The notes under the pieces are model-generated. The model worked only from the letters and a program-made list of their open reading frames with translations. It was not told where the DNA came from and did not search any database. This document shows positions 11,127 to 61,168 of a DNA stretch of 61,168 nt, piece by piece; the first letter of the stretch is position 1, and each line of letters opens with the position of its first letter. Made by a program: the position numbers and the translations under genes. The DNA is from a virus, in the IMG/VR virus record IMGVR_UViG_3300031658_000006, positions 1 through 61,168 of that record; one strand, 5' to 3'.

Positions 11127-11894
11127 ATGCAAAAGAAAGTATACACTATCTTTGTCGAAACAAAACACAAACGACCAACAGGTCAAACATTAACTGCCAT
11201 GCAGAAATTATCTAAGAAGGTCACTACCGCCGCAAGTGTAGAGAAGGTCACATTGACAAGCATCCTAAACGAAGTAAAATTCGCAGACGGTTCCGGTGTA
11301 TCAGACGTGAGAACGACCTTGACGAAGGTCAAGCAATCCAAGGCTGAGGCGTTCAGTGCTGAGCTTGCAAACGCACGAGTCCTACTAAGCTTCCGAGAGC
11401 ATTACAACTGCCCGCTTGGAGAACTGAAGGAAGCGTTAGAGAATTCGTTTGGAGAGGTTATCAGCCTGAGTGAGTGCTACAAGAACCTTGGCTTTGGTGC
11501 TAAGGGATGCACAGCGAAGGAGGCTGCAAACCACGCAGGAAAGGTCATTGGAGTTGCGAGTGCTGAGCGTGAATACGCTGACAAGAACAACATGACGTTG
11601 TTGGCTGTCGAGAAGAAGTTCAACAAAGCAAATCCTGACGTGTTTGGAACACGTCGCTACAAGGATTGGTGTCTCGGTAAGGCAGCGAAGAAAGACGGTA
11701 GCAAGGCTGTTGCATTCGAGACCCTGACCTGTGAGGAGAGTGGAATGAAATGGGTTGAGAAGATGCTGAAGCGGGCGCAGGACCCAAGCAACGATTTGAC
11801 GCTGACTGAGCTGAACCGAGTGCTTGCGCATATGGCTAGAACGGCTGCTTTGGCTGAGACGGAGCAGGCTGTTGCTGAGGCTTTGCAAGCCTAA
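11127..11894 (+). CDS. Unknown early protein, first gene of rightward operon
   Basis: A 255-residue, Lys/Ala/Glu-rich, mostly helical protein. No family is recognised. It contains one cysteine-bearing segment (LSECYKNLGFGAKGCTAKEA) and a C-terminal helix rich in Ala and Glu. A perfect TATCTTTG -7 box lies inside the predicted 5' end at 11147-11154; if that promoter is used, the real start is the in-frame ATG at 11199 (MQKLSKKVTT, 231 residues). The gene is followed at once by hairpin and ribozyme elements. As the first gene of the early region it may act in host takeover, but that is inference from place only. Confidence 0.75.
   Translation: MQKKVYTIFVETKHKRPTGQTLTAMQKLSKKVTTAASVEKVTLTSILNEVKFADGSGVSDVRTTLTKVKQSKAEAFSAELANARVLLSFREHYNCPLGELKEALENSFGEVISLSECYKNLGFGAKGCTAKEAANHAGKVIGVASAEREYADKNNMTLLAVEKKFNKANPDVFGTRRYKDWCLGKAAKKDGSKAVAFETLTCEESGMKWVEKMLKRAQDPSNDLTLTELNRVLAHMARTAALAETEQAVAEALQA
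11147..11154 (+). promoter_or_regulatory. -7 box TATCTTTG at the head of the early operon
   Basis: A perfect TAnnTTTG match and the only one found near the start of the rightward genes. It lies 20 bases inside the longer reading of the first gene. No clear TTG -33 box is visible 19-21 bases upstream, so confidence is moderate. Confidence 0.4.
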
Positions 11895-11902
11895 CGGCAA
11901 CG

Positions 11903-11922
11903 GGGGGGACAGCGGTCCCCCC
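11903..11922 (+). repeat. GGGGGGAC-AGCG-GTCCCCCC hairpin (copy 3)
   Basis: Eight base pairs with loop AGCG, nine bases after the stop of the first early gene and directly joined to the hammerhead ribozyme. Only the two ribozyme-linked copies have loop AGCG. Confidence 0.85.
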
Positions 11923-11976
11923 TCCGTCCACAGCTGTGTAGCTGTGCTGATGATGACTCAAAAGAGTCGAAACGGA
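11923..11976 (+). ncRNA. Hammerhead ribozyme 1 (type III)
   Basis: All hammerhead parts are present in order. Stem III is TCCGT (11923-11927) with ACGGA (11972-11976); the cleavage base is C11928 in GTC. Stem I is CACAGCT (11929-11935), loop GTGT, AGCTGTG (11940-11946). The core CTGATGA is at 11947-11953, stem II GACTC-AAAA-GAGTC at 11955-11968, then GAA at 11969-11971. Both ends lie in stem III, so it is type III. One extra T (11954) sits between CTGATGA and stem II, which may lower activity. It lies between the first and second early genes, 22 bases before ATG 11999. Confidence 0.85.
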
Positions 11977-11998
11977 AATCTAACTTAATACTTTAGCT

Positions 11999-12373
11999 AT
12001 GGACAGCAACAAGAAAAGTCTAACTGAACTCTTAGCCACATGGGACAAGCTCCATGTGGTAGGCATAACTCCTGGAGAGGTCAACTCCATCATGACCGAG
12101 ACGGTGATGGGTGACTCCATCGTCAAGGTTGCCATTGAGTTCCAACATCGGAACTCTCCCGTCTCAGGGACGCACTCCATCCATGCCCGTCTCATAACGT
12201 ACGACTTCTATGGCAACAGGGTGACCGTGAGATTCAATGGCTCATGGGGATGCCATGACGAGGAGATACCACAGTTCATCAAGTGGTTCCATCTCAAGAA
12301 GTATGAAGCAAGGGATAAGGACGAAGCGCGAGCGAACGCAACATCGGGATTGGTAGGCAACTTCCTCGCATAG
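11999..12373 (+). CDS. Hypothetical early protein
   Basis: A 124-residue protein (MDSNKKSLTELLATWDKLHV). No family is recognised. It has mixed alpha/beta character, with FQHRNSPVSGTHSIHARLIT and VTVRFNGSWGCHDEEIPQF in the middle and a basic helical C-terminus. It is flanked on both sides by hairpin-plus-ribozyme units, so its coding segment would be cut out of the polycistronic RNA as a separate piece if both ribozymes act. Confidence 0.75.
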   Translation: MDSNKKSLTELLATWDKLHVVGITPGEVNSIMTETVMGDSIVKVAIEFQHRNSPVSGTHSIHARLITYDFYGNRVTVRFNGSWGCHDEEIPQFIKWFHLKKYEARDKDEARANATSGLVGNFLA

Positions 12374-12379
12374 CATAGG

Positions 12380-12397
12380 GGGGGACAGCGGTCCCCC
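12380..12397 (+). repeat. GGGGGAC-AGCG-GTCCCCC hairpin (copy 4)
   Basis: Seven base pairs with loop AGCG, six bases after the stop of the previous gene and directly joined to hammerhead ribozyme 2. Confidence 0.85.
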
Positions 12398-12450
12398 TTC
12401 TGTCTCAGGCTGTGTAGCCTGACTGATGAGTCCAAAAGGACGAAACAGAA
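12398..12450 (+). ncRNA. Hammerhead ribozyme 2 (type III, canonical)
   Basis: Stem III is TTCTGT (12398-12403) with ACAGAA (12445-12450); cleavage base C12404 in GTC. Stem I is TCAGGCT (12405-12411), loop GTGT, AGCCTGA (12416-12422). The core CTGATGA is at 12423-12429, stem II GTCC-AAAA-GGAC at 12430-12441, then GAA at 12442-12444. Every core base fits the hammerhead consensus. Compared with ribozyme 1, all three stems differ in sequence but keep pairing, whereas loop I (GTGT) and loop II (AAAA) are unchanged: covariation that supports the fold. It lies in the leader of the gene at 12468. Confidence 0.93.
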
Positions 12451-12467: not shown

Positions 12468-12782
12468 ATGGCCTACATCAAAAGCACTATGAGAGTTTCA
12501 AAAGGAATGGACGTTTTAAACGAGTTGATGGGCATGAAATCAGCGGACGAAATAATCCTCAATGACAGCGATATCATTGCGGTTGGATGGAACTACAATG
12601 CTTCGATTCACATCCACCTGAACAACACAACGGAGCGATGGTTCCGCATCATTCAGGACGAGTTGGAGGGTATATCTGAGATGCGTCGCAGACATCCCGT
12701 CAACCCTGAAAGCTTGAGTCTGACTCAGAACTTCGACTTCGTCTACAAAGGTTTTGACATCAACCTGACCTTCAGCGCATAA
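12468..12782 (+). CDS. Hypothetical early protein downstream of ribozyme 2
   Basis: A 104-residue protein (MAYIKSTMRVSKGMDVLNEL). An in-frame ATG at 12426 lies inside the ribozyme core and is not a plausible start; ATG 12468 follows the AAATCAAATG-type leader by a few bases. An overlapping ATG at 12461 in another frame gives only 34 codons. The protein has a helical N-terminus and a beta-rich C-terminus (IHIHLNNTTERWFRI, then FVYKGFDINLTFSA). No family is recognised. Confidence 0.75.
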   Translation: MAYIKSTMRVSKGMDVLNELMGMKSADEIILNDSDIIAVGWNYNASIHIHLNNTTERWFRIIQDELEGISEMRRRHPVNPESLSLTQNFDFVYKGFDINLTFSA

Positions 12783-12789
12783 TCCTCAT

Positions 12790-12809
12790 GGGGGGACAGC
12801 CGTCCCCCC
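12790..12809 (+). terminator. GGGGGGAC-AGCC-GTCCCCCC hairpin with TTTT (copy 5)
   Basis: Eight base pairs with loop AGCC, followed by TTTT, seven bases after a stop codon. It may terminate or attenuate transcription, or act as a stable RNA end, before the next small genes. Confidence 0.6.
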
Positions 12810-13605: not shown

Positions 13606-13625
13606 GGGGGGACAGCCGTCCCCCC
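13606..13625 (+). repeat. GGGGGGAC-AGCC-GTCCCCCC hairpin in leader cassette (copy 7)
   Basis: Eight base pairs with loop AGCC, flanked by AAATCAC before and ATATAAATCAAATAAAA after, then ATG 13643. Same cassette as copies 6 and 9. Confidence 0.85.
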
Positions 13626-18696: not shown

Positions 18697-18963
18697 ATGG
18701 CACATGAACAAAAGATAACCGTCAAGATTGACGTGAAGAAGCTGGTTAAGTCTGGCTTCTACCAAGGAGAGAAGGGATTGTACGCAACCCTAACTATTAT
18801 TCCAACACCTGACAATAAGTACGGTGATGACTACATGGTCACGCAGTACCTAGGTAAGGAAGAGAAGGGGCCTATCATCGGCAACGCCAGAGACCTAGTC
18901 TTCGACAACGACACCAAGAAGAAAGAGGTAGTCGAGGAGGAGGAAGAGGACGTGCCGTTCTAA
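18697..18963 (+). CDS. SSB-like single-stranded DNA-binding protein
   Basis: An 88-residue protein with a beta-rich body (KITVKIDVKKLVKSGFYQGE, GLYATLTIIPTPDNKYGDDY, MVTQYLGKEE) and a strongly acidic tail ending EEEEEDVPF. The tail mimics the C-terminal tip of bacterial SSB (acidic run ending in DIPF), which recruits replication proteins. It is shorter than bacterial SSB, so the OB fold is compact or divergent. It lies between the recombination pair and the primase-helicase, the expected place for such a protein. Confidence 0.75.
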   Translation: MAHEQKITVKIDVKKLVKSGFYQGEKGLYATLTIIPTPDNKYGDDYMVTQYLGKEEKGPIIGNARDLVFDNDTKKKEVVEEEEEDVPF

Positions 18964-18995: not shown

Positions 18996-19095
18996 TTGTA
19001 CCCACCTATGTCGATGTGTCGAAAAAAGTTTTCTATATACCACCATATATATTTACTCTATCTTACTCTCCCCCCGTATGGGTGAGAAGAAAAAA

Positions 19096-19174
19096 CGACA
19101 TTATCGACACTGGTATTGGTAACCAGTTATTTAGCCCGTTAAAATCAACACACAAAACGACATTAAATCGACAC
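19096..19174. repeat. Paired CGACA/TCGACAC sites before the primase gene (copy B)
   Basis: CGACATTATCGACAC (19096-19110) and CGACATTAAATCGACAC (19158-19174) match the pair at 10310-10377, and the sequence just before (CGTATGGGTGAGAAG) matches CGTACGGGTAGAG there. TGTCG occurs twice more at 19018-19031. The block ends three bases before the primase ATG, so a protein bound here would affect primase expression; an origin role is the other option. Confidence 0.7.
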
Positions 19175-19177
19175 CGC

Positions 19178-21595
19178 ATGACACAAACCGTCACAATCTT
19201 CGCGAATATTAAGGATACGTCCACTCCTTTCTACCGAAGTGTACGCAAAGTTCTCTCACGAGTAAAGGATGGAGCGTCCAAGAATAAGGTCAACGCCATC
19301 AGGAAAGAGAAGGACAAGAGCTCACGTAACGAACTCAAGCGTGGCCTACCTGCCGTATGCTTTAGCGGTACGTTCACCAAGCGATTGGACAATGCACTCA
19401 CTCAGCATAGTGGTCTCATCTGCCTAGACTTCGATGGATACGAGAGGAGTAAAGAGATGAAGGATGAGAAGGACAAACTCAGTAAGGACAGGTATGTGTT
19501 CTCTGTGTTTGTATCGCCATCAGGCAACGGGCTCAAGGCTCTGGTTAAAATTCCTGCCGATGTAGACAACCACCTCAATTACTTCAACGCTCTAGAGAAA
19601 CACTTTAACTCTGAGCATTTCGATACCACCAGTAAGAACATAAGCCGTGTATGCTATGAGTCATACGACCCACTCATCTATATCAACGAGGAGTCACTGC
19701 TCTGGGATAAGATAGACGAGCCTGAGTATAGCGAGGTTATGGTACACCGAGACCCTAAGACCATACACATCACCGACGACAATAAGATTGTAGATATCCT
19801 ATTGAAGTGGTGGACGAAGAAGTTCGGTATGGTGGATGGCGAACGCAACATGAACCTATACAAGTTGGCTATGGCGTTCAATGACTTCGGAGTAAACAAA
19901 AGCCTAGCCTCTCATATCATGCGTGACTTTGAGCAGCCCGACTTTAAGATGGTGGAGATAACGCGCACCATCGATTCCGCGTACCGACGTACCGAGAACT
20001 TCGGTATCAAACAATACGAGGACAGGGATAAGATATCACACATCAAGGCACAGCTAAAAAGTGGTGTGTCAAAAAAGGAAGTCCGCTCTCAACTCAAGGA
20101 GTCCAGCATTGGGAGCGACGTAATTGATTCGGTATTAGAACGAGTCGAGCTGGAGAACGCAGACGTTTCCTTCTGGGAACGTAACGACCGTGGTGTCATT
20201 AAGATTATCCCGATAGACTTCAAGTCTTTCTTAGAGGACAGCGGTTTCTATAAGTACTGCCCCGAAGGAAGTAAGAACTACATCTTCGTCAAGGTCACTA
20301 ACAATCTCATAGACCACACGTCAGAGAAAGAGATTAAAGATTTCATCCTCAACTATCTCATCGACTTAGATGACAAAGGAATCTATAACTTCTTCGCTGA
20401 CTCGGTACGTTACTTTAGGGAGGAGTTCCTCACCCTGCTATCTACGATTGACATCTTCTTTATGGAGGATACCAAGGACACCTCGTACCTATACTATAAG
20501 AACGGGGCTGTCTTGATAACCAAAGACACGGTGAGTATCATAGACTACCTCGACCTAGGTGGGTACGTATGGAAAGACCACGTTATAGACAGGTCGTTTG
20601 ACGTGCGCGATGAGTACAGCTGTGACTACCAAGTTTTCATTGGGAACATATGCAACAAAGACAGCGAGCGGATAGCTACTATGCGTAGTACTATAGGGTA
20701 TATGATGCATGGGTATAAGAACATGAGCTACTGCCCAGCTATTATCCTTAACGATGAGGTCATCAGCGATAGCCCAGAGGGTGGTACGGGTAAGGGATTG
20801 TTTATGAATGCCCTCTCACAGATGAAGAAGATGGTGGTGATTGACGGTAAGGCATTCGCTTTCGAGAAGTCATTCCCCTATCAGTTGGTATCAGCAGACA
20901 CGCAGATACTATGCTTCGATGACGTGAAGAAGCACTTTGATTTCGAGCGGCTATTCTCTGTAGTGACAGAGGGCTTGACGTTAGAGAAGAAGAACAAGGA
21001 TGCTATCAAGATACCATTTAGTAAGTCACCAAAGATTGCTATCACTACGAACTATACCATCAAGGGTTCAGGGAATTCATTTGCCAGACGTAAGTGGGAG
21101 CTGGAGTTACACCAGCACTACAATAAGAACCACACCCCATCGATGGAATTCAATAAGCACTTCTTTGCAGAGTGGGATATAGATGAGTGGTATCAGTTCG
21201 ATAACTATATGGTGAGCTGTCTTCAGGGTTACCTCAGTACAGGCTTGGTAGAGTGTAAGCTTATTAACGTGGGTCTAAATCAGTTGAGAGGGAATACAGG
21301 TGATGACTTCGTTGAATGGTGCGGATTAACTAAAGGAAGCGAACACAATAAACTTCTTGAGCCAAACATCAAGGTGTATAAACAAGACCTTCTCCATGAT
21401 TTCATTCAAGACTTCCCTGACTATGCTCCTAGGGCTAAGCATTCCGTTACTCGTAACGAGTTCTATAAATGGCTGAAGGCTTACTGCAAGCACAAGCACG
21501 AAGTCGAACCTGATGATGGTCGTGATAGCGTAGGTAGATGGATGCGTATACGTAGGAAGCATGAGGCTGAGGTACAAACTAACTTAGGATTATGA
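19178..21595 (+). CDS. Primase-helicase with VirE/BT4734-type N-terminus and D5-like ATPase
   Basis: An 805-residue replication protein. The N-terminal part (about 1-150: VTIFANIKDTSTPFYRSV, later SGLICLDFDGYE and VSPSGNGLKALVKI) is the BT4734/VirE N-terminal primase-type domain common in Bacteroidetes mobile elements. The C-terminal part is a D5/DUF5906-like superfamily 3 helicase with Walker A GGTGKG near residue 535, Walker B ILCFDD near 578 and a downstream KIAITTNYTIKG sensor-like motif. It probably primes and unwinds phage DNA. An upstream in-frame extension to 19016 covers the repeat block and is not used; ATG 19178 directly precedes the conserved VirE-like start. Confidence 0.9.
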   Translation: MTQTVTIFANIKDTSTPFYRSVRKVLSRVKDGASKNKVNAIRKEKDKSSRNELKRGLPAVCFSGTFTKRLDNALTQHSGLICLDFDGYERSKEMKDEKDKLSKDRYVFSVFVSPSGNGLKALVKIPADVDNHLNYFNALEKHFNSEHFDTTSKNISRVCYESYDPLIYINEESLLWDKIDEPEYSEVMVHRDPKTIHITDDNKIVDILLKWWTKKFGMVDGERNMNLYKLAMAFNDFGVNKSLASHIMRDFEQPDFKMVEITRTIDSAYRRTENFGIKQYEDRDKISHIKAQLKSGVSKKEVRSQLKESSIGSDVIDSVLERVELENADVSFWERNDRGVIKIIPIDFKSFLEDSGFYKYCPEGSKNYIFVKVTNNLIDHTSEKEIKDFILNYLIDLDDKGIYNFFADSVRYFREEFLTLLSTIDIFFMEDTKDTSYLYYKNGAVLITKDTVSIIDYLDLGGYVWKDHVIDRSFDVRDEYSCDYQVFIGNICNKDSERIATMRSTIGYMMHGYKNMSYCPAIILNDEVISDSPEGGTGKGLFMNALSQMKKMVVIDGKAFAFEKSFPYQLVSADTQILCFDDVKKHFDFERLFSVVTEGLTLEKKNKDAIKIPFSKSPKIAITTNYTIKGSGNSFARRKWELELHQHYNKNHTPSMEFNKHFFAEWDIDEWYQFDNYMVSCLQGYLSTGLVECKLINVGLNQLRGNTGDDFVEWCGLTKGSEHNKLLEPNIKVYKQDLLHDFIQDFPDYAPRAKHSVTRNEFYKWLKAYCKHKHEVEPDDGRDSVGRWMRIRRKHEAEVQTNLGL

Positions 21596-22830
21596 TGGAG
21601 TTCAGAGACTACCAGAAGGATATCATAGATGAGGGAATAGATATCCTATCTGATAAAGGATTCCTTTACTTAGCTATGGAAGTACGTACGGGTAAGACGC
21701 TTACGAGTTTAGGTATAGCTGATGCATTTGATTTAGATAACGTGTTGTTCTTAACGAAGAAGAAAGCTATCTCTAGTATCGAGTCAGACTATAAGATGCT
21801 GGCCCCTGAGTTTGAAATACACGTCACCAACTACGAGAGTATGCATAAAGCACCGCTAACTAAGTGGGACCTTATCGTATGCGACGAGGCTCATAGCTTA
21901 GGTGCGTTCCCTAAACCAAGTAAGAGAGCCAAGCAGGTGCGTGAGCTTATCAAGAAGAACGGCAAGCAACCATTGGTAGTGCTGTTGTCAGGTACACCTA
22001 CCCCTGAATCGTACAGTCAGATGTACCATCAGGTGTACGGCATACCCAACAACCCATTCCGTAAGTACAAGAACTTCTATAGGTTTGGCGATGACTACGT
22101 ACGTGTGAAGCAAAGGAAGATGAACGGCTTAGTGATTAACGATTACACCGAGGGGCTAGAGAGAATCATAAGAGAGATGCAACCACACACCATCAGTTAT
22201 ACGCAGGTGGAGGCTGGCTTTAAAGTGGACACACGTGAGCACGTGCTTCGGGTACAGGCTAGCGATAGGATACATCAGATATGCAATCGCCTTAAGCGTG
22301 ACCTCGTGGTAGAGGGCAAGGACAATGTCATCCTAGCTGACACGCCTGTTAAGCTTATGCAGAAACTACATCAACTGTACTCAGGTACGGTGAAGTTCGA
22401 GAGCGGAGAGTCTATGGTGATAGACTATACCAAGGCTGAGTTTATACGTGAGCGATTCAAGGATAAGAAGATTGGTATCTTCTATAAGTTTAAACAGGAG
22501 CTCAATGCTTTGAAGAAAACATATGGAGATTCCTTGACGACCGAGCTAGATGAGTTCGAGACCACCGACAAGAGCATAGCCCTTCAGATAGTCAGCGGAC
22601 GTGAGGGTATCTCGCTACGTCAGGCCGACGCCTTGGTGTACTACAACATCGACTTCAGTGCTACAAGTTACTGGCAGTCACGAGATAGGATGACTACTAA
22701 GGAGAGGTTGAAGAGCGATGTGTACTGGGTATTCACTGACGGTGGTATCGAGAAGGACATATACAAAGCGGTGACTAAGAAGAAAGACTATACGCTAAGA
22801 CACTTCAAACGCGATGTATTAAGTTTGTGA
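21592..22830 (+). CDS. SF2 (SNF2-like) DNA helicase
   Basis: A 412-residue superfamily 2 helicase, small for the SNF2 group. Motifs in order: FRDYQ at the start (Q-motif-like), Walker A EVRTGKT at 30-36, Walker B DEAH near 98 (VCDEAHS), motif III LLSGTPTPE near 133, then motif V GREGISLRQADALVYYN and motif VI SRDRMTT near 363. It would move along or remodel DNA during replication or recombination. It overlaps the primase-helicase gene by four bases. Confidence 0.9.
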   Translation: MMEFRDYQKDIIDEGIDILSDKGFLYLAMEVRTGKTLTSLGIADAFDLDNVLFLTKKKAISSIESDYKMLAPEFEIHVTNYESMHKAPLTKWDLIVCDEAHSLGAFPKPSKRAKQVRELIKKNGKQPLVVLLSGTPTPESYSQMYHQVYGIPNNPFRKYKNFYRFGDDYVRVKQRKMNGLVINDYTEGLERIIREMQPHTISYTQVEAGFKVDTREHVLRVQASDRIHQICNRLKRDLVVEGKDNVILADTPVKLMQKLHQLYSGTVKFESGESMVIDYTKAEFIRERFKDKKIGIFYKFKQELNALKKTYGDSLTTELDEFETTDKSIALQIVSGREGISLRQADALVYYNIDFSATSYWQSRDRMTTKERLKSDVYWVFTDGGIEKDIYKAVTKKKDYTLRHFKRDVLSL

Positions 22831-55297: not shown

Positions 55298-57901
55298 TTA
55301 AGGCCACGTAGCAATAGCTACTCTTTTCCAAATGTTAGTCGCAGTACAAACATAGATAAAAGTGTCCGTCCATACAACATCACCCGCCGCTCCAGTAGAA
55401 CTAGAGGTAGCAGGAGGTGTACCAAAGTTTACTTTAGAGGCAGGGTCAGTCCAAGCTAGCTCTCCATTTAGAAGATTAGACAGCTGCTGATTGACAGTAG
55501 GGATGTTACCTGGAAGAGTTATCGTATAGCTAGTCGCTCCAGCAAGAGAAACTGGTACTTTAATTGTTAAGTATCTAGTATCGGCTGGGATACCAGTATC
55601 TATCCTAAGCTTTATTGAAGAATTAAACTCAACAGTATTGTCTACGTTCAATTTTAACATAGGGGTTAAATCACCATTCGGAACAACAAAGCTTAAACTT
55701 TGGCCTGCTGTACCAAGTAGATAACTCCTATTACCAGTTCCTGTCTGAACAAGGTCAGAGGTAGCAAGGTTAGTGCTATCGTTCTGAGAAACCCAGCTTA
55801 AAATTCCACTGCCATCGGTTTGTAAAACCTCGTTGGCATTGCCATCGTTCTCAGGAAGAGTAAGTGTATAAGAGCTAAGTAAAGTTGAAGGGGCTTTAAT
55901 ACCCGCATACAAACCATTTAATACAGAAAGCTCAAACCGTAACGTAGCTTGGTTACTTATACTAATAGCATTTTCAGCAGAGCTATTGAGCGAAAACAAT
56001 GGTGTAGTACCTCCATCATTTCCAAAAATTAAAACACCTTCATCAATATCATAAGCTCTAACCCCACCTGTCTGAACAAGGTCAGATGTGGCAAGGTTAT
56101 CTGTGCTGGATTGATTAACAAAAGCTAACTGTCCTGAACCATTAGTTTTAAGAACCTGCCCAGCTGTACCATCCGAAGCTGGTAATGTTAGAGTATAAGA
56201 AGCAGATACAATTGCTGGTGATTTAACCCCTACATAGTTTGAGATTCCGTCGTTAAATCGAATAGGAACTCCAAGACCTGTATTGATTGAGTTATTACCA
56301 GAGGTACCATTAAGAGAAAAAACAGTAGCTCCCGTATTGCCCGTAAAACGTATAGTTTGGTTGCCTAAACTATATGTTCGGTTTTCTCCACTTTGAGTAA
56401 GGTTGCTGTTAGATAGATTAACAGATGTGCTAGTTGCCCACGAAAGAACACCTGTAGCACTAGTCTGTAAAAATTGACCTGCTGTACCTACAGCCGCAGG
56501 AAGGATAAGTGTATATGAAGATGTAACAGCAGTCGGAGCTTTAAACCCTACATACTCGCTACCTGCCGCATCCAGCAATTGCAAAGGAACAGTATGTCCA
56601 ATAGAAACTTTTGCTGAAGAAATACCCAATAAAGGAGTAACACCATCTTGGAATTGTATAGCCCCTGTGTTTATATCATACGTCCTAGTAGAATCGCTTT
56701 GAGTAAGGTTAGCATTGCCTAGGTTAATAGAAGTAGCGCAAAGTGTAACAGCACTACAGAAGTCAGTAACCTGAGACGCTGTGATAGCGATAGGGTTCTG
56801 AGATGCCCCTATAACAACTCCTTTACCGTTAACAGCTAACGTAGCCGAATTAGCAGCGTCTCCAAATGTTCCATTGCTAGTTTGATTGCTTAAAGAAACA
56901 GCACCAGATAAAACAGATAACCCTCCTGCGGACGGGAAAGATGCGATACCCGCTACTGTGGAAGTAGCTAACGAGACGTTATTGTTAACAGCTGTCCAGT
57001 CTCCTTGGTCAACAGGATTATCTTGATTGGAAATAATAACATCCCCTACAGCCAATGCGGTGCTCCAAAATCCCAGACCATTACCCGCTCCTGTTACTGA
57101 ATAAGTAAACCCTGTTAATACTCCAGGACCTATAGGAGGAAGTGCAATATCAGCATCATAACCGCCTTGGAAGGTTAATACTCCAGAACCAGCGAATGTA
57201 GTATCCACATAGGCTTTAGTCGCGGCGTCGGTTGCAACGGTGGGGTCAACAAGACTAACAATCTTATTGGTTCCCATATCAAGGTTAGCCGTGGCAGCTC
57301 CAAACGAAGTTACAGGAATATTTGCTGAGTCAATTTTATGCTGATTGGTTCCCGACGTAACAGCAAAATAATCTGCATCATTAATGTTACCACTTAGGGG
57401 TAGCTCGCTAATATCTAAAGTAAATGTAGCTGTTCCAGGAGCAGAGATTACCGTGTCAATACCCACACCACCCACTAACGATAATGTATCGTCGTCGTAA
57501 ATAGTTTGATTGGCTCCTGTATCTCCACTTATATCAAAGGAAGTCATAATTCCAGGAGCTACACCCGATACAACACCCGTAATATGACCCTGTGTATTAA
57601 CAGAAATAGATACAGGATAGGCATACGTGCCTGGTGTTCCGTAATTTAAATGGTCAAAGGTGACCGTTCCAATATTAGAAGCCACGCTATCAATAGCTAC
57701 TCCACCTAAAAGAAATAACGAATCATTATTGTTTATAGTCTGGGCAACACCAGTGTTCCCGTATACACTAAAAGAAGCGAGCCCTACAATGTCGCCAATA
57801 CTATAGTTCATAGTGGCTAAGGCATTGCCAGAATCACTGCCAATAACCTTGTCTAACGCGGTCGGTGTACCATCTATTAAGTACGAGCTAATCTTAGGCA
57901 T
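55298..57901 (-). CDS. Large tail fibre protein
   Basis: An 867-residue beta-repeat fibre. After a short attachment part (MPKISSYLIDGTPTALDKVI) come repeats with NTGVAQTINNND, then DPTVATDAATKAYVDTTF (a very common phage fibre shaft motif). Four later repeats each read (S/T)-YTLILPA or YTLTLP followed by D-G-x-A-G-Q-x-L-x-T and L-x-W/F-V, with DLVQTG-R-x-YD in front. The C-terminus ends VCTATNIWKRVAIATWP, a fibre tip pattern. It probably works with the modular adhesin. The first 219 codons are also present at 1-657. Confidence 0.85.
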   Translation of the reverse strand: MPKISSYLIDGTPTALDKVIGSDSGNALATMNYSIGDIVGLASFSVYGNTGVAQTINNNDSLFLLGGVAIDSVASNIGTVTFDHLNYGTPGTYAYPVSISVNTQGHITGVVSGVAPGIMTSFDISGDTGANQTIYDDDTLSLVGGVGIDTVISAPGTATFTLDISELPLSGNINDADYFAVTSGTNQHKIDSANIPVTSFGAATANLDMGTNKIVSLVDPTVATDAATKAYVDTTFAGSGVLTFQGGYDADIALPPIGPGVLTGFTYSVTGAGNGLGFWSTALAVGDVIISNQDNPVDQGDWTAVNNNVSLATSTVAGIASFPSAGGLSVLSGAVSLSNQTSNGTFGDAANSATLAVNGKGVVIGASQNPIAITASQVTDFCSAVTLCATSINLGNANLTQSDSTRTYDINTGAIQFQDGVTPLLGISSAKVSIGHTVPLQLLDAAGSEYVGFKAPTAVTSSYTLILPAAVGTAGQFLQTSATGVLSWATSTSVNLSNSNLTQSGENRTYSLGNQTIRFTGNTGATVFSLNGTSGNNSINTGLGVPIRFNDGISNYVGVKSPAIVSASYTLTLPASDGTAGQVLKTNGSGQLAFVNQSSTDNLATSDLVQTGGVRAYDIDEGVLIFGNDGGTTPLFSLNSSAENAISISNQATLRFELSVLNGLYAGIKAPSTLLSSYTLTLPENDGNANEVLQTDGSGILSWVSQNDSTNLATSDLVQTGTGNRSYLLGTAGQSLSFVVPNGDLTPMLKLNVDNTVEFNSSIKLRIDTGIPADTRYLTIKVPVSLAGATSYTITLPGNIPTVNQQLSNLLNGELAWTDPASKVNFGTPPATSSSTGAAGDVVWTDTFIYVCTATNIWKRVAIATWP

Positions 57902-57907
57902 ACGTTC

Positions 57908-58069
57908 TTACGCTTTTCGGTTCTTACCCATAACAACGGCCTGAAGGATACGAGACAATACATTTACAATGCGGTCGTCCTTCTTGGTTTCTGTGAGCGC
58001 GGTCATAGTTCCTGCCGCAGTCAAAACAGCCAATGCAATCTCGGCCCAGTATGATGCTAAAAAATTCAT
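57908..58069 (-). CDS. Small membrane protein of the lysis cassette (second copy)
   Basis: Same 53-residue protein as at 664-825, lying in the terminal repeat. In a circular genome this is one gene, not two. Confidence 0.7.
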   Translation of the reverse strand: MNFLASYWAEIALAVLTAAGTMTALTETKKDDRIVNVLSRILQAVVMGKNRKA

Positions 58070-58485
58070 GTCGTTTCGTTTAAAAATTTATACTTATCCT
58101 GAACATCGAATGAGGGGCAATCCTTTTTTGAATATTCGTTGTGTCCGTGGATACTTAACTCCCCAAAAATAAGGCGTAAACTTTTAACCAGATTCAAGAA
58201 CGATATATCCTGCATCTCAGTCATCGTGTCTAGGGGTTTCAAGTTGTTATCCGTACCACCTATATAGCAAACACCTATAGAGTCTAGGTTGTGTGAGTAG
58301 GTGTGAGCCCCAATCACATCTATATCTCTACCCTTATGCACTGAACCGTCGGCGTAGATACAGAAGTGGTACCCTATATCATCCCATCCTCGAAGCATAT
58401 GCCATCCACGTATATCATCAACAGTTACATCGCGTCCACCAGGTGTAGCTGAGCAGTGTAAGATGATTCGTTTTAGGTCCCTCAT
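58066..58485 (-). CDS. Endolysin amidase (second copy)
   Basis: Same 139-residue T7-lysozyme-type amidase as at 822-1241, with the zinc ligands H10, H115 and C123. Counted once if the genome is circular. Confidence 0.92.
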   Translation of the reverse strand: MRDLKRIILHCSATPGGRDVTVDDIRGWHMLRGWDDIGYHFCIYADGSVHKGRDIDVIGAHTYSHNLDSIGVCYIGGTDNNLKPLDTMTEMQDISFLNLVKSLRLIFGELSIHGHNEYSKKDCPSFDVQDKYKFLNETT

Positions 58486-58688
58486 TCAATACCCTTCTTG
58501 GCAAGCAATAACTTAATGTCATTTACTCCATCTACTAAGAAGTCAAGGCTCTGCTGAACTTTGGTCTCTTGCTTCTCTAGCGAAAACAACCGCGCTTTAA
58601 TTGTAGTTACCTCGTTTGTCATCTTAACCCATGTGGCTATAATACCTCCCAACGCGCCGATAGCAATAGATATAATCTCGTAGTTCAT
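58482..58688 (-). CDS. Membrane-anchored coiled-coil lysis protein (second copy)
   Basis: Same 68-residue protein as at 1238-1444: one N-terminal membrane helix, then a coiled coil. Confidence 0.65.
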   Translation of the reverse strand: MNYEIISIAIGALGGIIATWVKMTNEVTTIKARLFSLEKQETKVQQSLDFLVDGVNDIKLLLAKKGIE

Positions 58689-59119
58689 TACTCCTCGATA
58701 AAGTCAACGTCCTCGGTTACTCCTTCAGTTTCGATTGGAAACCATCCGTTAGCCTCCATATATGCCTGGTCGTGGACCGTGCATTCGGTAGGGATAATCT
58801 GCTCAAAAAGAACCGTTGAAGACGTAGTGATAAGCGTAGTGAGGGCGTCCATTTCTGCTTGGGGCATTAAAGGAAACAAAGCCTGTAGCTCGGTGAAGTC
58901 CACCGCTGCGTTAACGTAGATAAGCCAGTCTAAAATAATCGACAGTGCCGCCTCTCCCGTTGTGGGGTGGATGACAGAGCCAAATAAATTGAAGTTTGCT
59001 TCGTCTGGATTTTGGATAGACTCTGGACGAGTAATACAATAAAGCTGTCGAGAAATAGCTTCTGCTCGCTCCTCAGATGTAAGTCCTCCTTCGGGAGGAA
59101 CGATTAGATAGTTACTCAT
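58688..59119 (-). CDS. Hypothetical protein (second copy)
   Basis: Same 143-residue acidic protein as at 1444-1875. Confidence 0.75.
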   Translation of the reverse strand: MSNYLIVPPEGGLTSEERAEAISRQLYCITRPESIQNPDEANFNLFGSVIHPTTGEAALSIILDWLIYVNAAVDFTELQALFPLMPQAEMDALTTLITTSSTVLFEQIIPTECTVHDQAYMEANGWFPIETEGVTEDVDFIEE

Positions 59120-59139
59120 AGTGTGTAAAGATAAGGATA

Positions 59140-61168
59140 TTAATAGATGTCGTAGAAGTCGTTTAGGTTGGTTTCGATTCCAGTGCGGTCTGTGGATTTG
59201 TCGGAAGCGTAAACAACTACCTCCTGCGCTTTGCCATTAAAATAGCTTGAATTTCCTTTTTGACCAAGACGAATACCTGTGCTTGTTGTACCTGCGGCGC
59301 CTCCAGTTTCTGCGGTTGAGCCGTTGTAACCTATTGCAAGAGACGTTCCGAATAAACCAAACACCAAGTTTTGGGCGGCTGTGTAGTTTGTTGACGTATT
59401 GAAACCATTGTTAAAATTCATTCGCATTGTTGCGTTTGAATTGTACCTAAAAAATGCGATTCCTCCTGTGCCGTCCCAAGCGATAAAAGCGCCACTACTA
59501 TTTGTTTGGTCAGGTTTGGCAACGTGAAAGCTGGTGAGCGTTGTTTCAGATAATCCAACACTATCTAAGAAATCGTTTGCACCATCAAAATCTAACGCGG
59601 GCTTGCCGTTCTCCGTCACCATACCCGTCGTACCATCGTAAATCTTTGGTCGGTTAGCAGACGTAACTTGAGTAACGTTGTTCCCACTACCACTCTGGTC
59701 GTACCAAGTCTCTACGAACACGTCGTTACTACCTCCGTAAGCGACAATAGCAGAAGTGTCTAACTCTCCGTAGCTATCGAAGCCTACGTCAAGCGTAGCT
59801 CCGCCCACGTTGTCCTGTACTTTAATAGCGCTACCTGTATAAGTGTTACTCAATCTACGTAAAGAGTAACCCGCCGATGCACCTGAGTACTCGTCAAGTA
59901 AGCCAGCCAAAGCGACATCGTAGTAGCCACCGATGTTGGTTTCGATTCCTGTTGTATCGGCTGCAGATTTTACCGATGGATACAAAACCATTTCTTGATA
60001 ATATCCTTTGAAATCATAGTAACCTTTAAGCTGAATGCTTGTTGCGTTTGTGAAAGTTCCTGCTTGATTGTATACCTCTATGGCGTTCACCCTATACACC
60101 ATCGTTCCGTTGTGGCTCATCGACATTAAAGCGGGTGTGTTAGCGGAAATCGTTCCGTCGCCAGCTATTAGCGGTCTAGAATTATTGTAAAACCCGTCAT
60201 ATATTTTACCTGATGTGTACCCCCAATGGCCTGTAATTTGGCTCGTTCCTAACGCGCCATAAGGACCGAGAGCAGTCTTTTCAAATAGAACGAACCCGTG
60301 AACCTCAGTTAAATTCAAGTTTCCAACGGTCATACTTTTTGTCCCTTCTACCGATATTCGAGGTTTTCCGTTTGCGTCCACTATAACCGCACCTGTTGTA
60401 CCATCGTAAATCTTTGGTCGGTTAGCAGACGTGGCCTGAGTAGCGTTGTTCCCGTTGCCACTTTGGTCGTACCAAGTCGCCACAAAAACGTCATTAGAGC
60501 CTCCGTAAGAGATTAACTCAGCAGTGTTAAGGTTACCGTTAATATCAAAATCAATAGCCTTTGTAGCCCCTCCTACATTGTCCTGAACGAGGATAGCGGG
60601 ACCTGTGTAGCTAGAGTCAATATTGCGTAAAGAGTAACCCGCAGCAGCACCTGGGTAGTTATTCAATAACAAAGGCGCTACAGGCTCAGTATAGATTGAA
60701 TAGAAGGTGTTGATGTTCGTCTCAATTCCTGTGCGGTTGGCGGATTGGTCTGACGGGTACGTTATAAATTCCTGAAAATTACCGTTGAACTGTTCCGAGC
60801 CTCCTGCGTTCGCTCCAATGATAAGAGGCACGCTTGTGGGATATGTAACCAACGCGCCTGTTGTGTTCAGCGCTTGCGTTCCGTTTAAATAGGAAGTGCC
60901 TGCAAAGGTGTTAAAACTAAACGCGCTTTGAATTGTTGGGTAAGCGAATCCGCTGGCTTTGGGCGAGCCGTTAATGTAATAATCAATGTCTCCTGCTGGG
61001 TTATTATCGATTGCTTGATTTACCCTAAAATAAGGTGATGAATGTGTTGTGGCGTTAGCAGGAAGGCAAAATGTAACGTTGTACCCGTTCGTTCTGTCTT
61101 GTTTATGTACTCCAAAAAACGTCAGTTTTTCGTCATTCGCTACTCCATTAGACGTTCTCAAAAAATCA
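59140..61168 (-). CDS. Variant modular tail adhesin, C-terminal part (cut by window end)
   Basis: The open frame runs off the right edge, so the N-terminus is missing; no ATG start is visible, and the frame stays open to the edge. The last module (about 248 residues) is identical to that of the adhesin at 1896-4358. Upstream it carries one whole module (LLLNNYPGAAAGYSLRN, later ATWYDQSGNGNNATQ and ANRPKIYDG) and the end of another, both differing from the left copy in their lectin-like parts (for example TEVHGFVLFEKTALGPYG). The module borders and closing motif (TGIETN-x-x-x-(F/Y)Y) are kept. It is an alternative allele of the receptor-binding protein. Confidence 0.85.
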   Translation of the reverse strand, partial: DFLRTSNGVANDEKLTFFGVHKQDRTNGYNVTFCLPANATTHSSPYFRVNQAIDNNPAGDIDYYINGSPKASGFAYPTIQSAFSFNTFAGTSYLNGTQALNTTGALVTYPTSVPLIIGANAGGSEQFNGNFQEFITYPSDQSANRTGIETNINTFYSIYTEPVAPLLLNNYPGAAAGYSLRNIDSSYTGPAILVQDNVGGATKAIDFDINGNLNTAELISYGGSNDVFVATWYDQSGNGNNATQATSANRPKIYDGTTGAVIVDANGKPRISVEGTKSMTVGNLNLTEVHGFVLFEKTALGPYGALGTSQITGHWGYTSGKIYDGFYNNSRPLIAGDGTISANTPALMSMSHNGTMVYRVNAIEVYNQAGTFTNATSIQLKGYYDFKGYYQEMVLYPSVKSAADTTGIETNIGGYYDVALAGLLDEYSGASAGYSLRRLSNTYTGSAIKVQDNVGGATLDVGFDSYGELDTSAIVAYGGSNDVFVETWYDQSGSGNNVTQVTSANRPKIYDGTTGMVTENGKPALDFDGANDFLDSVGLSETTLTSFHVAKPDQTNSSGAFIAWDGTGGIAFFRYNSNATMRMNFNNGFNTSTNYTAAQNLVFGLFGTSLAIGYNGSTAETGGAAGTTSTGIRLGQKGNSSYFNGKAQEVVVYASDKSTDRTGIETNLNDFYDIY

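Follow-up and report, generated by a model that had tools for sequence, protein, structure and literature searches.

The two type III hammerhead ribozymes (HHRs) found in this virus contig each lie directly behind a gene-end hairpin, and each site probably acts as a two-part gene separator, formed by the hairpin and the HHR, in a polycistronic early phage transcript. The window, that is, the whole 61,168-nucleotide stretch analysed (IMG/VR record IMGVR_UViG_3300031658_000006), carries the two HHRs between co-directional early genes and around one 124-codon reading frame, with the sequence and the list of open reading frames confirming what the first-pass annotation had described, and cuts after C11928 and C12404 are predicted to release an RNA containing this reading frame alone. 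The features concerned are as follows.

11127-11894, plus strand: upstream gene, 255 aa (list of open reading frames)
11903-11922, plus strand: gene-end hairpin 1, GGGGGGAC-AGCG-GUCCCCCC, 8 nt past a stop codon and abutting HHR copy 1
11923-11976, plus strand: type III HHR copy 1, with an extra U at 11954 (RF00008 match and fold)
11923-11927/11972-11976, plus strand: copy 1 stem III
11929-11935/11940-11946, plus strand: copy 1 stem I, loop GUGU
11947-11953 (CUGAUGA), 11954 (extra U) and 11969-11971 (GAA), plus strand: copy 1 core
11955-11959/11964-11968, plus strand: copy 1 stem II, 5 bp, loop AAAA
After C11928 (copy 1) and after C12404 (copy 2), plus strand: predicted cleavage sites
11929-12404, plus strand: predicted self-excised RNA with the 124-codon gene, 476 nt, from the two cleavage sites and their spacing of 476
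11999-12373, plus strand: 124-codon gene between the ribozymes (list of open reading frames)
12379-12398, plus strand: gene-end hairpin 2, same sequence, loop AGCG, 5 nt past a stop codon
12399-12449, plus strand: type III HHR copy 2 (RF00008 match and fold)
12399-12403/12445-12449, plus strand: copy 2 stem III, with a sixth pair 12398/12450
12405-12411/12416-12422, plus strand: copy 2 stem I, loop GUGU
12423-12429 (CUGAUGA) and 12442-12444 (GAA), plus strand: copy 2 core
12430-12433/12438-12441, plus strand: copy 2 stem II, loop AAAA
12468-12782, plus strand: downstream gene, 104 aa from its inferred start (list of open reading frames)
12790-12809, plus strand: same hairpin with loop AGCC, without a hammerhead, followed by TTTT, after the gene at 12468-12782
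13606-13625, plus strand: same hairpin without a hammerhead, 10 nt past a stop codon
18976-18995, plus strand: same hairpin without a hammerhead, after an 88-aa reading frame ending at 18963

The predicted fold of both HHR copies is a three-way junction, with three stems placed around the core and stem III open in the folds and in the RF00008 alignments, and both copies contain the invariant core, namely CUGAUGA (consensus CUGANGA), GAA, the A15.1-U16.1 pair, and a C at H17. All hammerhead parts can be read directly from the sequence in the order and at the places originally proposed, and the assignment to type III is supported by the core, the stem topology, and the RF00008 matches of both copies. 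The further claim of the first-pass annotation, that the core and the loops are the same in both copies, holds for the loops, GUGU and AAAA, but not for the core, with copy 1 reading CUGAUGA-U-GACUC-AAAA-GAGUC-GAA so that it has a single additional U and a 5-bp stem II. The recurrent GUGU and AAAA loops appear compatible with a tertiary contact between loop I and loop II. The stem I/core module CTGTGTAG-gap-CTGATGA has two matches in the window, which are the two HHRs (0.00 expected).

The two cassettes form a 57-nt direct repeat of 79% identity, in which direct reading finds seven pairs altered on both sides (one in stem III, four in stem I, and two in stem II) and none altered on one side only, so the stems indeed differ between the copies yet stay paired, as had been claimed. 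A covariation score over 38 HHRs (0.815, compared with 0.234 when shuffled) was set aside as evidence because the HHR finder behind the gathered set requires pairing. The evidence used in its place comes from matches to a pattern of core and stem II only, in which stem I did not have to pair, with a perfect 7-bp stem I present at the right place in 100 of 126 viral-contig matches compared with 79 of 46,800 random places (0.17%).

The extra nucleotide of copy 1 follows a pattern of its own. Amongst the 154 distinct phage HHRs gathered by two wider pattern scans, 13 have a base inserted after A9 and before stem II, this being U in 11, A in two, and C or G in none. The plus-strand hammerhead of the viroid CChMVd similarly carries a one-nucleotide insertion, between A9 and 10.1, with A10 being the natural base, U10 making trans-cleavage 3-4-fold faster, and C or G being detrimental (PMC3705267). 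The phage HHRs differ from that of CChMVd in that their extra base is U (11/13) or A (2/13) and lies in mRNA leaders, without the viroid context. The U or A of these 13 HHRs, together with the viroid precedent, suggests that copy 1 is likely active, and the reading of copy 1 as a decayed ribozyme is rejected on the same grounds.

Whilst both copies match RF00008 (Hammerhead_3) with significant E-values in the covariance search that the first-pass annotation had put forward as its check, neither reaches the gathering cut-off of 48.5 bits, which is a curation threshold and not a structural feature of hammerheads. Copy 2 scores 47.2 bits (E = 6.8e-9 when 1.4 kb are scanned, and E = 3e-7 when the whole window is compared with all 4227 Rfam families) and copy 1 scores 31.1 bits (E = 1.6e-5 when its own 91 bases are scanned), with the 52.6 bits of copy 1 against model R1 coming from a model of which copy 1 is itself part, and the whole window yields no match at the Rfam curated threshold. 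The phage HHRs share the core, the three stems, the type III topology, and significant scores with RF00008, however all of those scored fall under its gathering cut-off (0 of 50 and 0 of 26 records, i.e. 0 of 76). Read strictly, as a score above the Rfam threshold, the proposed check would therefore come out negative, the RF00008 cut-off being set too high for this phage class. As no scored phage HHR passes 48.5 bits, default annotation with this threshold misses, and so hides, this whole class of phage hammerheads.

Both HHRs of the window follow directly on a hairpin of the form GGGGGGAC-AGCG-GUCCCC, then CC or CU, and the same order of stop codon, hairpin, HHR, leader, and start codon recurs in many phage contigs of ~60 kb. 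The 36 nt 5' of stem III of 126 non-redundant HHRs fold much better than shuffles (median z -3.04), with a hairpin ending at most 3 nt from stem III in 80%, and for 80 HHRs not selected by hairpin the median folding z is -3.12, with such a hairpin in 75%, percentages that describe a pattern-drawn sample containing related phages and not a population. The corresponding hairpin frequencies in the controls are 12-17% at random places in the same contigs and 5-6% in the 3' flank. The cassettes are intergenic, with 89 of 91 cleavage sites outside same-strand reading frames of at least 100 aa, the upstream stop codon lying a median 33.5 nt before stem III, which is just the room taken up by the hairpin, and the next start codon coming a median 26 nt after the HHR. 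The HHRs of this phage set have a 7-bp stem I, mostly with a GUGU or GAGU loop, and a 4-bp stem II, mostly with an NAAA loop, which was itself part of one search pattern.

The hairpin is also found away from the ribozymes. The window contains 24 strand-wise matches to the same or a similar hairpin at 12 places (0.27 expected). Most of these are in the early region and most have no ribozyme, and a stop codon often precedes them. As hairpins without an HHR are commoner than those with one, the hairpin has a role of its own, and some HHRs, such as that of the elemo phages, lack a strong hairpin. The loop AGCG is common to the two HHR-linked hairpins, with most other nearby hairpins having AGCC, which suggests that the hairpin and ribozyme were duplicated as a unit. 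Twenty nucleotides of the window hairpin are identical to an intergenic region of Bacteroides phage BT24 (PV788055 29017-29036; L286:3018-3037), with an E-value of 0.8, possibly by chance.

In the proposed separator, the hammerhead would fold during transcription and cut itself after NUH, i.e. after C11928 and C12404. By known hammerhead chemistry, the upstream product would end in a 2',3'-cyclic phosphate and the downstream product would start with a 5'-OH. The upstream mRNA would be left with a 3' end consisting only of the hairpin and about six nucleotides, because a type III hammerhead leaves stems I and II downstream, and this end would hinder 3' exonucleases. The downstream mRNA would begin with the 5'-OH and the two remaining ribozyme hairpins, which should shield its 5' end; a short, A-rich leader separates the HHR from the next start codon. 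The 124-codon gene would in this way be freed as its own 476-nt RNA, with a dose and lifetime apart from those of its neighbours. Synthetic ribozyme insulators of the RiboJ type likewise hold a hammerhead and a hairpin between transcript and reading frame and set RNA ends, however the RiboJ hairpin lies 3' of its ribozyme, whereas that of the window lies 5' and is natural. The recurrent cassette anatomy predicts both a specific role, the setting of mRNA ends, and the exact RNA ends. A broader reading, which we advance tentatively and hold at slightly less than an even chance, is that hairpin and HHR together constitute a dedicated, termination-independent maker of mRNA 3' ends that serves as standard punctuation in a large group of Bacteroidota phages, with the ribozyme cutting, the hairpin capping, and every early gene obtaining a message to itself. 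If true, such a punctuation role would give prokaryotic hammerheads a concrete function, where a 2017 review calls the role of hammerheads in bacteria and phages an open question (PMC6155905).

Two further consequences of cleavage were considered and rejected. Strand exchange, with the 5' strand of stem III pairing into the upstream hairpin after cleavage, is apparent in both window copies but is no general feature across 101 HHRs (0.43 paired, compared with 0.39 +/- 0.025 in swapped controls). Likewise rejected is the idea that cleavage frees the start codon, as its predicted accessibility hardly changes (0.61 to 0.62 and 0.51 to 0.46).

The hairpins may instead be terminators or pause sites, with the HHR merely trimming or removing read-through RNA and no mature single-gene mRNA arising by cleavage. 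This alternative, which we regard as unlikely, draws on the recurrence of the hairpins at gene ends without an HHR and on the TTTT that follows the hairpin at 12790-12809. However, a U-tract, as expected of an intrinsic terminator, is absent after both HHR-linked hairpins of the window, and at least five T within 8 nt of the hairpin end are seen at only 0.8% of HHR-linked sites; the HHR-linked hairpin is not an intrinsic terminator here. Furthermore, termination at these places would require the downstream genes of the array to have their own promoters, whereas a sigma-70-type scan of the region gives matches at chance level (15 compared with 14.9 expected) and a Bacteroidota-type promoter pattern has a single match in the window, outside this region.

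Less probable again is that the two HHRs jointly circularise the RNA of the 124-codon gene, with the 3' end left by copy 2 pairing with the remainder of copy 1 and being religated. The 5' strand of copy 2 stem III, UCUGU, can pair with the copy 1 3' strand, ACGGA, at 5 of 5 positions, one of these a G-U, and retrozymes and viroids are known to form circular RNAs (PMC6155905). Matched stem III strands are nevertheless not in excess amongst the 46 neighbouring HHR pairs in the gathered loci, the window's pair included, with a cross-compatibility of 3.54 bp compared with 3.62 bp between different phages, and circularisation by this route is rejected as a general property; such products were also sought by Perreault 2011, and none were detected (PMC3088659). 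That the cassettes are mainly DNA-level modules, i.e. recombination seams amongst shuffled early genes in which the ribozymes are passengers or decaying, is the least credible account and very unlikely, as their recurrence between small non-conserved genes with one shared hairpin per phage is outweighed by stems that vary with pairing kept around a constant core, which needs selection on RNA, and by an extra nucleotide that obeys a biochemical rule (U or A).

Returning to the gene separator, parts of it have clear precedents. Perreault 2011 (PMC3088659) reported clustered prophage HHRs that flank single genes or short blocks, proposed processing into gene-length mRNAs, and found HHRs of A. tumefaciens to cleave in vitro and in E. 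coli; the placing of HHRs around a single phage gene, which the first-pass annotation had set apart from the hammerheads known in some phages, was thus already described. The window resembles those clusters in that at least two same-strand HHRs flank a gene (here that at 11999-12373), and differs in being a ~60-kb podovirus-like Bacteroidota phage contig in which both HHRs are type III and each stands behind a gene-end hairpin. Searched by term, the main text of Perreault 2011 mentions neither such a hairpin nor a terminator. HHRs have also been reviewed as tied to phages and as often flanking reading frames for small non-conserved proteins (PMC6155905). Given these clusters and this review, the window ribozymes alone are of a known kind, and the coupling to the hairpin and its spread in a phage group are apparently undescribed, with no description of the coupling found in a literature that includes the older prokaryotic HHR papers in part, where an earlier mention is possible. 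The theta (HDV-like) ribozymes of gut phages (PMC10879173) are likewise small ribozymes that process phage RNA, however they are of another ribozyme class and tRNA-linked, and hammerheads are unmentioned there.

The genes around the ribozymes are little characterised, with the 255-aa upstream gene having no Pfam, PHROG, or PADLOC match, and a search for relatives of the 124-aa protein finding none. An earlier ATG of the downstream gene, at 12426, falls inside the core of the copy 2 ribozyme. A common function of HHR-flanked genes was considered and rejected, with Pfam mostly empty and DUF2201, DUF932, DUF3150, and AAA seen in a few.

Genes for TerL, portal, GroEL, Sak annealing protein, and primase are present in this 61-kb virus contig. 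Its TerL has 75.5% identity to that of an uncultured Manatee Spring podovirus, 45.5% to those of Flavobacterium elemo phages, and 36-38% to those of Cellulophaga phages, from which the host is probably a member of the Bacteroidota, and the gene leaders (AAATCAAATC before ATG) fit such a host. The stem I/core module pattern finds genuine-looking HHRs in six further viral contigs, and, where contigs carry a related TerL, scanning with RF00008 reveals 3-4 HHRs within one genome (G026, G041). Viral contigs contain 63 stretches in which the hairpin GTGTCTTCAAAGACAC precedes an HHR, with six or seven hairpin copies in single 16-kb stretches, and the window's own combination of hairpin and HHR has no relatives in viral contigs. 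Amongst prokaryotes, at one genome per species, a single 56-kb contig, binned as Cytophagales and probably a phage, is the only one with the hairpin and HHR pattern. Contigs L002, L003, L004, L007, and L008 carry another HHR family (GGTTGTC...GAAACAAC) without the GC-rich hairpin, in which a stem III strand is able to pair with an upstream CAAC.

Hammerheads are also present in cultured relatives, namely the elemo phages and Cellulophaga phage phi19:3. The elemo phages, from one Flavobacterium strain (BAL314), have the same HHR region in 68 of 68 records at no less than 99% identity (MT497017 near 19085-19137, minus strand), with the HHR being the leader of a leftward early operon, making end mapping in culture possible. 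Reading and folding indicate type I hammerheads in phi19:3 (KC821608, near 21765-21820, minus strand) and phi18:3 (KC821620, near 21905-21958, minus strand), upstream of similar genes (ATGAAGACATTAA...) and with a topology that differs from the type III copies. Phage phi19:3 additionally has a Pistol ribozyme at ~20369-20436 (L289:2370-2437, minus strand; 46.5 bits, cut-off 34.5), in a leftward early operon just before a gene start. Lastly, the ends of the window contig share an exact repeat of 2639 bp (1-2639 and 57245-59883), past which the copies diverge within a large structural gene (820 aa compared with 673 aa); this could be terminal redundancy with two adhesin-like gene alleles, or an assembly effect.
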